Shown one piece after another: positions 26,007 to 33,902 of a stretch of 64,000 nt of DNA. This DNA comes from Agathobacter sp. GTDB taxonomy: Bacteria > Bacillota > Clostridia > Lachnospirales > Lachnospiraceae. Numbering within the stretch: position 1 is the stretch's first letter; each line of letters opens with the position of its first letter. The position numbers and the translations under genes were made by a program. The stretch is from the NCBI GenBank assembly GCA_022769125.1, contig JALEKN010000033.1:1-64000 (forward strand). The letters are read 5' to 3'. The notes under the pieces are model-generated. The model searched no databases and had not been told where the DNA came from. It worked only from the letters and a program-made list of their open reading frames with translations.

Positions 26007-26696
26007 TTACATAAACTGTGCAAAAATGCTCGCCCCGATTACGGTCAGTATCCCTGCAACACCAATTGACAGACTGCTCATCGCTCCTTCTGTCTCACCC
26101 ATTTCAAGTGCCCTTGCCGTTCCAACCGCATGCGCAGACGTTCCGATTGCAATTCCTTTCGCAATCGGCTCTGTAATCTTTCCAACCTTGCAGATAAATG
26201 GTGCAATCACATTTCCTACAACACCGGTGATGATGATTATTGCTGCCGTCAGTTCCGTGTATCCACCCATTTCTTCGGATACCCCGATTCCGATTGCTGT
26301 GGTGATAGACTTTGGCAGAAACGTCACATACTCCTCATGTGAAAATCCAAACAGTATCGCCATAAGCAGAATGCATACAAGACTTGTCAGCACCCCTGTG
26401 GTAATCCCTGCAAAGATTGCTTTCCAGTTGTCTCTCAGCAGACTGATCTTTTCATATAAAGGAACAGCCAGGCATACTGTCGCCGGAGTAAGCAGCCATG
26501 TCAAAATATTTGCCCCTTCATTGTAGGTCTCATAATCTATGTCTGACACTACAAGAACCGCGATGGTAATTGCGATTGATATAAGAAGCGGATTAAAGAT
26601 TGCTTTTTTAAACTTAGATTTAATTAATACTCCAAGTCCGTATGCTAATAGACTAAGGATAATCCCAAAATAAACAGATTCCTCAATAAAGCTCAT
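26007..26696 (-). CDS. lrgB: LrgB/CidB-family membrane protein
   Basis: 229 residues with about six hydrophobic segments. Family hallmarks include [15 protein letters not shown] and [17 protein letters not shown]. LrgB works with LrgA in holin-like control of murein hydrolase activity or, in some bacteria, pyruvate/glycolate transport. The ATG at 26696 overlaps the lrgA stop (ATGA) and has GGAG just upstream; a longer form starting at 26723 would lie inside lrgA and is less likely. No LytSR two-component genes are adjacent. Confidence 0.9.
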
Positions 26697-27046
26697 GACT
26701 TTCTCTCCTTTTTGATGATCCACTGAGTCACTCTTCCGGATACAAGCATCACACAGACTAAGGATACAATTGTTGTGATTGTATACGGAATAATACGTGA
26801 TTGTATCATATCCCAGGAATTCATAAGTCCGACCGCTGCCGGAATAAACATCATCGGCATAATCTCGATCAGAAAAGTTGCCGTATCCTTAACATCCTCC
26901 ACCTTAAGTGCCTTACTCCCCAAAAGAACCAGCATAAGTACAAGCCCATATATACTTGCCGGAACCGGGAGCGGAATCAGGTAGTGAGCAAGCTCACCAA
27001 TGAACGAAATGGCAAGTATGATGCCAAATTGCTTTACGTATTTCAT
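26693..27046 (-). CDS. lrgA: LrgA/CidA holin-like protein
   Basis: 117 residues with four hydrophobic helices and the family pattern PLPVPASIYGLVLMLVLL. The first gene of the lrgAB pair, with AGGAGG before the ATG. Predicted inner-membrane holin-like oligomer. The 114-bp gap upstream contains a weak CAGGC/GCCTG hairpin that may end the helicase transcript. Confidence 0.9.
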   Translation of the reverse strand: MKYVKQFGIILAISFIGELAHYLIPLPVPASIYGLVLMLVLLGSKALKVEDVKDTATFLIEIMPMMFIPAAVGLMNSWDMIQSRIIPYTITTIVSLVCVMLVSGRVTQWIIKKERKS

Positions 27047-27160: not shown

Positions 27161-30100
27161 CTATAGCTGTCCATACAATTCGATATTTTTTGCATGGTCC
27201 CCACCATACAGGAAGTAGTAACTTATCTGTGCCCTGCCCTCGGTGTAAATATATGGACCATACATCGGAATTCCGCAAAACATAACTGTCTGGTCTGAAT
27301 CAATTGCAAGCGCATATCCCTTTTTAGAAAGCACAAGCGGCTTACGAAGCTGCTTGCCGCCAAAGGAAATATATCTTGCTTTCTTGTCCAGATCCATCAG
27401 ATCTGTTGCAAGAATTCCTTTTGCCTTAAGCTTTTCGTTTTTATCAAATGCAAAAAAATTCCATGTCCTGTTATCTTCCAATAATCTGGGTTCCGCAGGC
27501 TTCTCACTGAGAAGAGGCGTTTTATCAGTAGTTAAAAACTGCAGGGATCCATCCTTCTTATTGATATGGACAATCAGACGTTCCGTTGCAACCTCCACCA
27601 CGGATGGAGACTCTTTTGCTGTCCATCTCACGCGATGTTCCCCGGCAGCCACCTTTTCTTCTGCTGCACTCCTTGAGAAAGCAATGTGTACGCACAACTC
27701 ATTGACCGGTGTGATGGTAAGCACCCCATACCTGCTGGTTACAGCCAACGAAGTCTTAGACTTTTTTACCCAGCGGACAGAAGTATCCGGTCTGGTATGA
27801 CCTTTTACAACAAGCTCCCTGTTATCCGGCTGCTCCCCATATTGATATGGCGACTCATTAATTCTGGCTGTCACCGGCACAACCGGTTCCTGTTTGTTTT
27901 CCGTCCGGATGCTATTATTTGCAGCCGTAGCAGCCGCGACAGCAATACGTTTCGGTCCGATATAATTTCTTTGATCCATCTCACGGCTTCCATCCGCCTT
28001 TTGCTGTTCGAGCAGTTCCTTCGCCGTAAATGTCTGCCCCTTTTCTTCTTCCTCGTCCGAGTCTGTTTCGAACTCTTCCAGATGCTTTTTCTCAGGTACA
28101 TGTGTTGCAATTAAGGATGACAATGTCCCCTGATAAAAAACCGCCAGTTCATGCAAGGCACGCGTTGCTGACACATAAAGCATCTTGGTGTGTCCATTAT
28201 CCTGCGGATACTTTTTCTCCGATGGGTCAAATATCAGAACAGCATCGAATTCAAGACCCTTTGTGTATGCAACAGATAGTACCATCACTCCACTTACAAA
28301 ATCTGCAGTATCCCCTGTGATGTCTTTTACCGCAACATATTGGCCCAGTTCCGTGGAAACCTGCCTTGCCTCCTCATCATCCCTGCAGATGACCGCCAAA
28401 GTTTCATACCCGGTTTGCTGCCACTTAATGATTGTATCTGCACACGCCTTTATCAATGATACCCTGTCACTTCTCTGCTCAATCTTCACATCTTTGCCAT
28501 GCCGGATAATCGGCTCGACGGGATAAATGGCAAAATCCCCGTGACGCAGAATTTCCGTCGCAAAATTTGCAATCTCAACCGTATTCCGGTAGCTTTTGCG
28601 AAGCAGGCAAAACTTATCATATGTGCCTGTAAGCATCAGTTTTTTTAATTCTTCCCAATCGTTTAGACCATACTCAAAATGAATGTTCTGGGAAGTGTCA
28701 CCCATGATCGTGTAGGTGCATCCTCTCATACAGTAATTCAGTGCGGCATATGCCATTATCCCGAAATCCTGTGCCTCATCAATGATCACATGTGTTGCCT
28801 CCCGGACCGGATCGATCTCCTTGATCCGCTTGTACAGGTATGCAAGAGCAGCAAGATCGTAGACATCAAAGGAATTCTCTGCCGTGTCAATATCGAAGCC
28901 TCTTTGTTTCTGCTGTAATAAGAACTCCCGGTACAGTTCAAAAACAGATCCTTTCCACTCATCTTTTCCGTAATATGTACGATATTTCTTTTCCATCTCT
29001 TTCTTTTCTTCCGGTGTAAAAGAAATGTTTTTTCCCAGAATTTCGTTCTCATATTTGGAATAGAGAATTTCATTTAACATCAGCCGTTTGCTCTGCATAG
29101 ACATAAGCGGTGTCGATTCCAGATACGAATGTATCAGCCCTGTTCCCACAAGCAACACGCCTGTCTTGTCCATATAGACAGGTTCATCCGGTATATTTTT
29201 TTGTTCATATCTGCGGCAGAATTCCTCAAGTTCACAAAACCACTGCATCTTTCCCTTAATGCTATTCCGTGCATCATTTTTATCCACATCATGTACACAG
29301 TATTTATGTTCATCCCAATCTTCATACAGCAGGCGGATAAAGAGTTGTTCCATAGTCATCTGCCGCGCACCATAGACATCGAGTTCCGGCAGGACACTCG
29401 TGATGTAATTGAGCAAAATACGATTGCTTCCTATTATATAGAAATCCTCCGGCCGGAATTGGGATTCATAATTATATAAGATATATGAGATTCGATGCAT
29501 TGCAACAGTTGTCTTTCCGGATCCTGCCGCCCCCTGCACAATCATGTTTGTCTTTGGTGACCTCCGGATGATGCGATTCTGCTCCTTTTGGATTGTCGCA
29601 ATGATTTCTCCCAGTACCTCTGTCTTATTCTTAGACAGATACTTTGTCAAAAGTTCATCATTCGCGACCACATCCAGATCGTAAAAATCCTTTAACCGGT
29701 CATTTTCTATCTCATAGCTTCGTTTTCTTTTCAGCTCAATCTCGAAGGTTCCCTCCGTGCTTACCGTATAGGAACCCTTTCCCATCGCATTCTCATAATA
29801 CACGGAAGCCACCGGTGTTCTCCAATCAATAACGGCAGGCTCCATATTCTCGTTTGCGATTCCGACTCTTCCTATGTAGTAGGATTCTTCCTGATTTCCC
29901 TGGCTGTCACAAAAGTCTATCCGCCCAAAATACGGCTTTTTTCTTGCTTTTTCATGGCGCGAGATGTTATTCATCGCTTCCTTTAGCTGTGCCTTTGCGT
30001 TGTTCCAGAGAAATAGCCCCTCCTTATCCCCGGTGCTGTTCACATGCTGCATAATATCTTCTATATCACCGTTTAATTGTATAACCCGTCTCTTCTCACG

Positions 30101-30211
30101 TTCCAGATTTCTCTGTGCAAGCGCAATAGTTTTCGAAAGATACTGCTCCTCTGCCTCTGCCGACACTCCATACACACGCCCGCCACAATCTTTCTGCTTC
30201 GCCTGTCCCAT
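27161..30211 (-). CDS. HelD-type superfamily 1 helicase fused to a GH31 N-terminal-like domain
   Basis: 1016 residues. Residues ~1-705 match the UvrD-like HelD group that releases stalled RNA polymerase: N-terminal coiled coil (about 18-90), Walker A GAAGSGKT (227-234), IIDEAQDFG (476-484) and motif VI region MLYVSATRALHEL (677-689). An acidic linker covers ~706-785. Residues ~787-1016 resemble the beta-sandwich that precedes the barrel of GH31 alpha-glucosidases, with KGILATDLMDL, PLVLSKKGYALAID and YTEGRAQISYYFLYGGD. The chain stops where the GH31 barrel should begin. AAGGAGG precedes the ATG. HelD proteins are usually about 700-775 residues. The GH31 assignment is from memory of the family, not a search. 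Confidence 0.8.
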   Translation of the reverse strand: MGQAKQKDCGGRVYGVSAEAEEQYLSKTIALAQRNLEREKRRVIQLNGDIEDIMQHVNSTGDKEGLFLWNNAKAQLKEAMNNISRHEKARKKPYFGRIDFCDSQGNQEESYYIGRVGIANENMEPAVIDWRTPVASVYYENAMGKGSYTVSTEGTFEIELKRKRSYEIENDRLKDFYDLDVVANDELLTKYLSKNKTEVLGEIIATIQKEQNRIIRRSPKTNMIVQGAAGSGKTTVAMHRISYILYNYESQFRPEDFYIIGSNRILLNYITSVLPELDVYGARQMTMEQLFIRLLYEDWDEHKYCVHDVDKNDARNSIKGKMQWFCELEEFCRRYEQKNIPDEPVYMDKTGVLLVGTGLIHSYLESTPLMSMQSKRLMLNEILYSKYENEILGKNISFTPEEKKEMEKKYRTYYGKDEWKGSVFELYREFLLQQKQRGFDIDTAENSFDVYDLAALAYLYKRIKEIDPVREATHVIIDEAQDFGIMAYAALNYCMRGCTYTIMGDTSQNIHFEYGLNDWEELKKLMLTGTYDKFCLLRKSYRNTVEIANFATEILRHGDFAIYPVEPIIRHGKDVKIEQRSDRVSLIKACADTIIKWQQTGYETLAVICRDDEEARQVSTELGQYVAVKDITGDTADFVSGVMVLSVAYTKGLEFDAVLIFDPSEKKYPQDNGHTKMLYVSATRALHELAVFYQGTLSSLIATHVPEKKHLEEFETDSDEEEEKGQTFTAKELLEQQKADGSREMDQRNYIGPKRIAVAAATAANNSIRTENKQEPVVPVTARINESPYQYGEQPDNRELVVKGHTRPDTSVRWVKKSKTSLAVTSRYGVLTITPVNELCVHIAFSRSAAEEKVAAGEHRVRWTAKESPSVVEVATERLIVHINKKDGSLQFLTTDKTPLLSEKPAEPRLLEDNRTWNFFAFDKNEKLKAKGILATDLMDLDKKARYISFGGKQLRKPLVLSKKGYALAIDSDQTVMFCGIPMYGPYIYTEGRAQISYYFLYGGDHAKNIELYGQL

Positions 30212-30411: not shown

Positions 30412-31515
30412 ATGGTAGGCCAAAATGCGATCGGCAGAGCCATTGCCAAAGGTATCTCCGATCCTCTTAAGGATCTCGGTGATCGAATGGTAACCTTTGA
30501 AAGTGGAGATGTTTCCTCTCCATTTCCGACTTACGATAAAGATGACGAGGTCGGTGACATGATAAAAGCAGTTGGTTCAACCACATCCAAGCTTCAAAAG
30601 ATCATTGCAGATCTTGAACATCTGTTAGATGAAATGGCCAACGGCAACTTCAATATCACAAGTTCCTGTGAAGAGGAATACGTTGGGGAATTCAACGGCC
30701 TGCTTGTATCTGTCCGCCAATTATACACACATATGTCCTCTGCTCTTTCCGATGTACGCAATGCATCTGAGATGGTATCTGCCGGTGCAGGCAATCTCGC
30801 CGAAGGCGCACAGGCACTTGCCGAGGGTGCTACCGATCAGGCAGCTTCCGTAGAAGAGATGCAGGCTACCATGGATCAGATTACTTCCACCGTAGAGCAT
30901 AATCTCGAAGAAGTAAACGCCGCCTATGAGATGGCAAAACAGTGTGCTGCCGAGGCAGAAGAAAGCCGTGCCGAGATGGAAGTCATGATGGCCGCCATGA
31001 ATGGTATCAGCGAGACATCACAGAAGATCGAACAGATTATCGCCGAGATTGAAAATATCGCAAGCCAGACCAATCTTCTTTCCTTAAATGCAGCCATCGA
31101 AGCGGCGAGAGCTGGCGAGGCCGGCAAAGGCTTTGCGGTTGTTGCCGATCAGATCCGTACCCTTGCAGAACAGAGTGCCAATTCGGCGGTCAACACCAAG
31201 GAATTGATTGAGAATTCCCTTATCGAGGTAGATAACGGTAACAAAGCAGCCTTAAAGGCCTCTGAAGTATTGAGCAATGTTGTAGCATCCATCCAATCCA
31301 TTGCAGAGAGTTCCAAGGCACTCAGCGAATCTTCCCAGCTTCAGGTAGAAGCCATGGAGCAGGCAGACGCAGGAATCACAAGGATTTCCGAGGTTGTCCA
31401 GAACAATTCCGCAACCGCAGAAGAATCCTCTGCTACCAGCCAGGAATTATCTGCACAGGCTACCTGCTTAGACGAATTGGTTGCCAAATTCACTTTAAAT
31501 GAATCTGAACAATAA
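30412..31515 (+). CDS. Methyl-accepting chemotaxis protein lacking its N-terminal half
   Basis: 367 residues holding only a HAMP-like segment (about 10-70) and the cytoplasmic signalling coiled coil with the conserved hairpin tip ([20 protein letters not shown]). Full receptors are 550-750 residues with a periplasmic sensor and two membrane helices; here an in-frame stop lies just upstream (30394) and no helix precedes [12 protein letters not shown]. There is no ribosome-binding site at the first ATG. It is either the remnant of a 5'-deleted receptor gene or a soluble signalling protein. The 3' end is intact with a strong terminator. A full-length receptor converges from the other side. Confidence 0.75.
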
Positions 31516-31599: not shown

Positions 31600-33774
31600 C
31601 TATTCCTCATCCTGTAAACGGAACTCTCCGATCAGGTTCTTAAGCTTTTCTGCCTGAGCTGCAAGTTCCTCGCTGCTTGCAGAGCTCTCTTCCGCCATTG
31701 CCGTATTTTCCTGAATGACAGCAGCAATCTGGTTTGCAGCCTCCGTAACCTGTCCTAAGGACTCTGACTGCTTCTGCGATGCCTGCGTAATTTCCTCGAT
31801 ATTCTTTACAAGCTTGTTCGTTGCATCAACCGACTCCAAAAGCTTTGCAGCGGTCTGGTCAACTACACGCTTTCCTTCTTCGACAGCGTTCATCGCCTGG
31901 ACGATCAGTGCATTTGAACTTTGTGATGCTTCCGCACTCTGCGCTGCAAGAACACCAACCTGCGTTGCCACGACGGAGAATCCTCTTCCGGCCTCGCCTG
32001 CTCTTGCCGCTTCGATTGAAGCATTCAGTGCAAGAAGATTGGTCTGATCCGCAATATCATTGATCGTATTGATAATGGAGCGTATCTGCAAGGAGGTCTG
32101 ATTGATGGTCTCCATTGCATCAACAACCTGCTGCATCTGCTCATTGCTCGCAACAATTTCATCACCGACAACCTTTGCAAGATCATTGGCTGCATTGGCG
32201 TTCTCGGCGTTTTTCTCGACCTGATCTGCTACATGAGTGATCGTAGCCTGAAGTTCATCAACGGAATTTGCCTGATCCATTGCCCCCTCCGTCAGCGATT
32301 GGGCGCCTTCCGAAATCTGTGCGGCATTGGACGCAACCATCTCGGAGGCTTCATTGATCTGCCATAAAGTATGTGACAGATCACTCAGTACTTTTTCCAG
32401 AGCGTCTTCAATCTCTTTGAAATCTCCCACATGTTCAACACCTGATCTGACATTGAAATTACCATCTGCCATCTCCTTAAGGTTGTGCGTAATATCTTCT
32501 ATCGTTGACCGCAGTCTGCTGGCCATCTCAGAGAAGCTGTTGGCAAGACCTCCGATCTCATCCTTATATTGAGCTTCAAGTGATACGGAAAAATCACCCT
32601 GCGCCAACTGCTCTGCGACATTCACAACCTTTGCGATCGGCTTAATGTATTTACGTAACAGGCGCCCGCTCAGCACTATAATAACGCCAAGAGTTGCGGC
32701 TGATACCAAAATCATCAGAAGAACCAGCTTTACGGTACTGCGGTTCAGATCACGCTTTGAAAGAGCGCTTGCCGCCCACCATGTCTGGCCTGCCGCATTA
32801 ATAGGCGCATAATAGCGCACAAGCTGTGTCCCGTCTGCTTTCCTCGTGCTTACATGAAAGCTCTCCCCGGTATCAATTCCAGCCTGTATCTTCGCATAAT
32901 CCTTTGCGGAAATCAGGTCCGGTAACAGCTGCCCCACAAAATCCATGGATTCACTATCATAGATCATCATCCCCTGCGGATTCAAAATATCGACGTACAT
33001 ACTTGGATATTTGGAATCGGTTGACCGCAGGCAGGAAAAAGTATCCAGCTTGATATCTACAAGCACAACACCCTTTGTCTGAACATTGTATACAATCGGA
33101 AAAGATGCACTGATCATGTATACCCCCTGATCCATGTATGGATCCGTAAAGGTACTCTGCTGCGTCTTGGCAGCCTCACGATAGTAATCCTTCTGGCTGT
33201 AGCTTTCGTACTCTCCGTAACTCTCAGCCTTCCCCTTCTTTGCATTCTCCTCATTGACATAGACTGTGTAATCCTTTACATTCGGATCGAACGCATTCTG
33301 CTCGAAGAATACACCTACACCACAGATTGCATCATTGTCCCTGACAATCGTGCTCGCTACGCTTATAATAAATGTCTCGGCCTCTTTATTTGTCTGCTGA
33401 AGTTCAACTTTATCGTAGACAGCACTCATTCCGGTCTGTCCCTTGTATCCCTTTTCCGAAAAAGCATCATAGTGCTTCTGCATATAGTCCTGCAAAATGC
33501 TTGCGGTATTCGAAGCCGTATTAAGGACATTCTGTACCATCAGACCGTTCTCTGTTGCGATACCCTCAAACTCTCCGTTTACCGTCCTGTTCAAAGAGCG
33601 TCCTGCCAAAGTAGCAGTGATCGCGATCAGAAGTGTCAGACAGATGACCAGCAGAAATGCCGTCACAGTAGAAATCTTGTAAATAAGACTCTGATTACGG
33701 AACTTATCCGATGCACTTATCTTCTTTACAATTTCTGTCTCCACCTTGTCGATTGCCTTCTTTTCCTTTGCCAT
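31600..33774 (-). CDS. Methyl-accepting chemotaxis protein with dCache-type sensor
   Basis: About 724 residues: basic cytoplasmic start, first membrane helix (about 35-58), large extracytoplasmic dCache-like sensor (about 70-345; contains [18 protein letters not shown] and DVYVDILNP-like strands), second helix (about 355-378), HAMP (about 380-435), then the signalling domain with [20 protein letters not shown]. dCache sensors bind amino acids, organic acids or similar small ligands. The ATG at 33774 has GGGA upstream; an in-frame ATG at 33810 has no ribosome-binding site. No other chemotaxis genes are in the window. Confidence 0.88.
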
Positions 33775-33902
33775 TTCTAATTCCCAACCCCTTCTCTGTT
33801 TTGTAGTCATAATTATAGCTACAACTATTAACAGTTTAGGGCTTATTGGTCAATTTTGCAATCATTTTCGCTCTTTTTCGTTCTTTTTCGCCACAGCTGA
33901 TT

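Follow-up and report, generated by a model that had tools for sequence, protein, structure and literature searches.

A HelD-type helicase fused to a GH31 N-terminal-like beta-sandwich domain in Agathobacter and other Lachnospiraceae

A gene in a 64,000-nucleotide stretch of Agathobacter sp. DNA (assembly GCA_022769125.1, contig JALEKN010000033.1, positions 1 to 64,000; hereafter the window) encodes a HelD-type helicase motor that is almost certainly fused to the N-terminal beta-sandwich of glycoside hydrolase family 31 (GH31). This identification had been made in a sequence-only reading, and homologous fusions as well as the predicted fold bear it out. The observations as a whole are best explained, with a probability somewhat above even, by a fusion of single origin that descended vertically and whose exapted domain docks onto a partner. 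The GH31 fold and core are retained, the barrel is absent and the pocket loop, as placed by alignment, is replaced; in this sense the domain is exapted.

The NCBIfam model HelD_BACSU is the best model for the motor (E 3e-104), and a PDB search matches Bacillus subtilis HelD (6wvk_H, E 1.2e-74), in agreement with the earlier proposal that the first 705 or so residues form a helicase with the Walker A and DEAQD motifs. The score of 350 bits is below the curated cut-off of 419, and the protein is therefore not filed as an equivalog of NF041464 HelD_BACSU. It is a HelD of its own branch, with the B. subtilis type as closest model. The HelD-specific N-terminal arm with the tryptophan of the DWR motif is present (residues 82-336, aligned to B. 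subtilis HelD 88-349). The superfamily 1 (SF1) ATPase motifs GAAGSGKT and DEAQD are invariant in 51 fused proteins, position 228 excepted. For the B. subtilis enzyme, W137 and the result for K239A have been described (PMC7749167). Binding and recycling of RNA polymerase is the predicted function of the window HelD.

The predicted fold of the C-terminal domain is that of the GH31 beta-sandwich. A profile or structure search had been proposed as a check on this part: the structural side agrees with GH31, while the window sequence alone yields no match to the PF13802/galactose-mutarotase-like profile, which at E ≤ 1 does match 7 of 12 relatives, with 9.2e-6 as the best value. The chain was expected to end where the barrel would start, and it does: the columns of the barrel are empty in 73-81 of the 81 fused proteins, and no GH31 barrel profile matches the window protein at E ≤ 1. 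Lacking the (beta/alpha)8 barrel with the catalytic residues, the window protein is not a GH31 glycosidase.

The same fusion, for which a search in other Lachnospiraceae had been recommended, is carried by many assemblies and named strains. The single window domain as query gave no relative in a first contig scan, and a family alignment was required; the genome sets (genus, family, order, class and named contigs) overlap. In the genus, 22 of 62 genomes match alignment A1 at E ≤ 1e-5. Nineteen of these matches are strong (E ≤ 3.1e-78), each with a helicase in the same frame, and the three weaker ones are GH31 enzymes. HelD occurs in 29 of the 62 genomes (E ≤ 1e-40), fused in 19, as an unfused sister in 7 and as a distant paralogue only in 3. 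A distant second HelD paralogue (G117:C53, L198, 1057-4152, minus strand) lies in a 1032-amino-acid frame, preceded by a ketopantoate-reductase-like N-terminal part as judged by eye in this one genome; an isolated gene fusion or an error may lie behind it. At the level of the family, the domain is matched in 39 of 299 genomes at E ≤ 1e-10, in 24 of them at E ≤ 3.2e-32. Frames of 1011-1145 amino acids account for 21 of the strong matches; the three short frames are explained by contig ends (G133, G091) and by a break in the linker (G234). The remaining 15 matches (E 1e-10 to 1e-17, frames of 133-859 amino acids) were classed as GH31 by frame size, with one checked (G292, L141). HelD was detected in 78 of the 299 genomes (E ≤ 1e-60), and 23 of these belong to the 24 strong domain matches. 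The order yields 6 of 295 genomes at E ≤ 1e-20: five frames of 1016-1080 amino acids from Lachnospiraceae itself, with the helicase checked in all but G995 and G1000, and one GH31-sized frame (809 amino acids) in another family. In the class, 13 of 391 genomes match at E ≤ 1e-8, and a helicase in frame is absent in all 12 besides the window's.

Among the named contigs, the domain lies in frame with HelD sequence in 68 of 68 loci, with no stand-alone copy and no fusion to a non-HelD partner. Carriers include Roseburia faecis M72, Mediterraneibacter catenae SW178, Catenibacillus scindens DSM 106146 and Blautia sp. An81, as well as Eubacterium plexicaudatum ASF492, in which the helicase part is broken. 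Two broken named copies keep the domain in frame with the remaining helicase. Some fused records are titled Eubacterium or Ruminococcus; the family-coded fused genomes all belong to Lachnospiraceae. Three fused genes are disrupted within the helicase (L040, L070) or the linker (L165), so that each continues in a second, overlapping frame; this pattern points to decay or to sequencing errors in individual genomes. An assembly join or chimera was rejected on the recurrence of the fusion in many assemblies and on similar GC content.

A tree of HelD motors was calculated from 108 rows, left from 131 after removal of identical ones and with frames spanning fewer than 600 profile positions excluded. 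It places the 81 fused proteins and L165 on one branch with a Shimodaira-Hasegawa-like approximate likelihood ratio (SH-aLRT) support of 95; the method was a quick one with this support only, and its long-branch warnings include the fused L171 and L173. L174 and L171 diverge at the base of the fused group, L171 on a long branch, and L169, L170 and L172 are the nearest unfused relatives. Because L165 scores as unfused only through a domain placed in an overlapping frame, no clean loss is apparent, and the fusion appears as one gain on one old HelD branch across many genera. Helicase and domain distances correlate with r 0.87 in 66 proteins (a value not reached in any of 999 permutations), which argues for a unit inherited whole and kept vertically.

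The domain is under purifying selection. Over 44 pairs, the helicase has a median ratio of nonsynonymous to synonymous substitution rates (dN/dS) of 0.092 and the domain one of 0.134, whereas the linker reaches 0.285 over 43 pairs; the pairs are related and thus non-independent, and three with very low domain dS gave 0.48-1.17. Mean pairwise identities are 0.68, 0.50 and 0.28, respectively. A domain-only tree was built from 57 fused and 10 GH31 rows after removal of rows at least 75% identical (94 to 67) and exclusion of weak or partial GH31 profile matches. The closest GH31 enzyme found, L137, has 33% identity to L174 and a mean identity of 0.28 to the fused domains. Copying from a GH31 gene of the same genome was rejected, since L033, the sole own-genome row in the tree, has the lowest mean identity of the 10 GH31 rows (0.19). 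The suggestion of a capture following the loss of a glucosidase gene finds no support as a local, recent event: the fusion is an old multi-genus branch, and the window genome retains four strong GH31 barrel matches and one weak one.

The linker varies between 61 and 181 amino acids in 66 fused proteins (counted over residues 701-796). It was initially described as acidic; acidity is not found across the family and is no family feature, so a mimic of the tail of the RNA polymerase delta subunit was ruled out. Its length and variability suggest a free tether.

The 81 fused domains were compared with 12 GH31 enzymes, taking columns shared by at least 10 of the 12 as conserved; the L066 row (wrong open reading frame) was ignored in one of the alignments. 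Of the GH31-conserved domain columns, 18 are retained in at least 80% of the fused proteins and 21 in less than 20%. Retained positions include E903, E926, G932, P958, S962, G965, Y966, G985, Y987 and the DYYF motif. Among the losses are a stretch of roughly 40 residues and glycine, glutamine and asparagine positions of the loop aligned with the GH31 N-loop; G180, G187, Q200 and N202 (L138 numbering) each persist in at most one of 81 fused proteins. In GH31 enzymes the N-loop contributes to the active-site pocket, and in glucosidase II the +1 sugar is contacted by Asp303 (PMC4742823). By alignment, the N-loop is putatively assigned to residues 933-956, a segment modelled with lower confidence than most of the domain. 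The fused clade shows here the consensus K944-A945-R-Y947-I948-S949-F-G951-G...R956, with variable positions after 945 and 949. S949 (81 of 81), R956 (76) and K944 (73) are newly conserved; Y947 is also found in many GH31 rows. Coordinates are compiled in Table 1.

Table 1. Features of the fused helD gene in the window.
Feature	Residues	Window position	Strand	Basis or remark
Whole gene: HelD helicase, linker and GH31 N-terminal-like domain	1-1016	27161..30211	-	Open reading frame, homologous fusions
HelD motor	1-705	28097..30211	-	NCBIfam HelD_BACSU, PDB 6wvk_H
Tryptophan of DWR motif	W130	29822..29824	-	Alignment equivalent of B. subtilis HelD W137
Walker A, GAAGSGKT	227-234	29510..29533	-	K233 aligned with B. 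subtilis K239
DEAQD	478-482	28766..28780	-	No variation in 51 fused proteins (alignment A3)
Linker, weakly conserved	706-795	27827..28096	-	
GH31 N-terminal-type beta-sandwich domain	796-1016	27164..27826	-	Profile matches of relatives, predicted fold
Rewritten N-loop region	933-956	27344..27415	-	Alignment; N-loop placement inferred
One-residue insertion relative to GH31	C979	27275..27277	-	Cys in 80/81 fused proteins; gap in 12/12 GH31
Retained GH31 N-domain core motif	997-1000	27212..27223	-	SYYF in window; D997 in 80/81 fused proteins

The combination is retained by many gut Lachnospiraceae; therefore, the domain has probably taken on a different function, for which docking is the likeliest candidate. 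As in B. subtilis, and by homology with it, the HelD part would open RNA polymerase and strip nucleic acids. The C-terminal domain would hang from the 2A head on its long, probably flexible linker and could dock onto a partner via the rewritten barrel-facing surface, with a presumed effect on recycling. Tethered docking is proposed because the fused HelD shares the plan of the helicase PcrA with a different domain; the chances of this mechanism taken by itself are close to even, at best. The earlier idea that the domain was recruited for contact with a ligand or partner fits these data, with binding itself as a prediction of the model. A broader version is possible but tentative and, on balance, rather doubtful: a glycosidase accessory domain turned regulatory input, the rewritten loop of which might sense a carbohydrate or metabolic signal or form a docking site for RNA polymerase, gating recycling or storage by HelD.

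Several observations weigh against docking and single origin. Conserved gene neighbours that would hint at a pathway are missing, the commonest cluster being present in 17 of 69 contexts (flanks of up to 7 kb, often shorter), and a conserved operon was not seen among them. Seven of the 62 genus genomes manage with an unfused sister HelD, and the domain is therefore dispensable for basic recycling. The fused clade is set clearly apart from 17 unfused relatives at just ten helicase positions, a number of which show conservative changes; thus, no obvious docking patch exists on HelD itself. The partner of the domain is a putative one. Besides the loop, residues 1-10, 51-60 and 61-70 of the domain are also modelled with low confidence (means of 64, 61 and 71). 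In the domain-only tree, the fused domains share one origin in only 8% of 200 bootstrap trees, with two label changes, and the basal L174 stands beside GH31 rows. The latter is compatible with a basal L174 and no proof of one origin; with respect to the GH31 donor subfamily, the domain tree would permit a single origin but does not establish it.

Alternatively, the domain could be a ligand sensor that binds a sugar, a sugar phosphate or another metabolite and tunes HelD, tying the recycling or storage of RNA polymerase to carbon status. A scaffold derived from a carbohydrate enzyme, the new conserved S949, K944, R956 and C979, and a conserved, less confidently modelled loop that could serve as a ligand lid fit this function. 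It is nevertheless unlikely: where the fused domain aligns with the pocket-forming N-loop, the residues conserved in GH31 have disappeared, most of the sugar contacts listed for the glucosidase II structure come from the barrel, which is absent here (PMC4742823), and a conserved neighbour cluster is missing. Quite unlikely, too, is an intramolecular regulator that packs on the 2A head, the clamp arm or the ATP gate of HelD and controls the ATPase or the release of RNA polymerase. Helicase and domain co-diverge, as plain vertical descent also predicts. The ten helicase positions are near-fixed in the fused clade and differ in unfused proteins (among them R85, R90, F325, E388 and E390), yet include conservative changes (A/I, L/I, R/K, V/A), and the long variable linker speaks for a free tether rather than for packing. 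An inert or recent tail, whether a capture accident, an assembly join or a functionless decaying remnant, would agree with the three disrupted copies and with a domain unrecognised by single-sequence profile searches; selection and distribution already contradict it, with an old branch over many genera, invariant residues and independent assemblies including the named R. faecis, C. scindens and M. catenae strains, and it is very improbable. Least credible of all is a split GH31 half that pairs with a barrel from another protein to restore glycosidase activity, which would suit the stop at the barrel junction and the other GH31 genes of the genome but not the lost loop residues and the missing segment of about 40 residues.

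In the window, lrgA and lrgB (26007-27046, minus strand) follow helD after about 115 bases on the same strand. Methyl-accepting chemotaxis signalling genes adjoin helD on the other side (30412-31515, plus strand and divergent from helD; 31600-33810, minus strand). A scan for rifampicin-alarm promoters returned 9 promoter-like sites at 8.4 expected, one of them at the 3' end of helD; as the total does not exceed chance, no claim is made.

The HelD literature, as far as represented in the passages available, deals with the bare motor, and a HelD fused throughout a lineage shows how such a motor gains new inputs. A survey of HelD classes covers Roseburia intestinalis and Blautia; the passages of it considered here mention no extra domain, and the terms "C-terminal", "glycosid", "extension" and "additional domain" are absent from its main text (PMC8655204). 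A fusion of HelD or a helicase with GH31 is undescribed among the matches listed in full-text literature, where "HelD" collides with "held". Fused and unfused HelD within one genus provide a natural comparison with the conserved loop as target, and the domain is a clear case of a glycosidase domain retained by selection without a catalytic partner.

HelD recycles RNA polymerase and, in some bacteria, shields the enzyme against rifampicin. It opens the polymerase with two arms, and the 2A head moves during the cycle (PMC7749167). B. subtilis HelD (Class I; PDB 6wvk, 6zca) shares the SF1 motor, N-terminal arm, DWR tryptophan, Walker A, DEAQD and 2A head; the fused HelD is longer by a linker of about 90 residues and a GH31 N-domain of 221 residues. 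In B. subtilis, HelD is assisted by the delta subunit, and dimers of the RNA polymerase-delta-HelD complex look like a hibernating polymerase (PMC7749165). Delta (TIGR04567) has no match at E ≤ 0.001 in any of the 62 genus genomes, while the control search on 14 named genomes detects it in two, B. subtilis and L. lactis. With HelD in 29 of these 62 genomes, it seems to work without delta. Since delta was not found with or without the fusion, replacement of delta by the domain does not explain the fusion. The closest relatives of the fused helicase, the unfused sisters (open frames of about 680-762 amino acids; L169, L170, L172), stop at the 2A domain. PcrA, another SF1 helicase, binds RNA polymerase through a Tudor domain that a long linker tethers to its C-terminal end (PMC5397179, PMC8318588). 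Like PcrA/UvrD, the fused HelD ends in a small beta domain held by an extended linker; that of HelD differs in fold and origin, being a GH31 beta-sandwich, and RNA polymerase binding would be an analogy only. The closest system for the domain itself is the GH31 N-terminal domain (PF13802 Gal_mutarotas_2), e.g. of FjDex31A (6jr6) and BoGH31A (5jou), from which the fused form differs by having no catalytic barrel behind it, about 40 residues fewer, replaced loop residues and an extra conserved cysteine.
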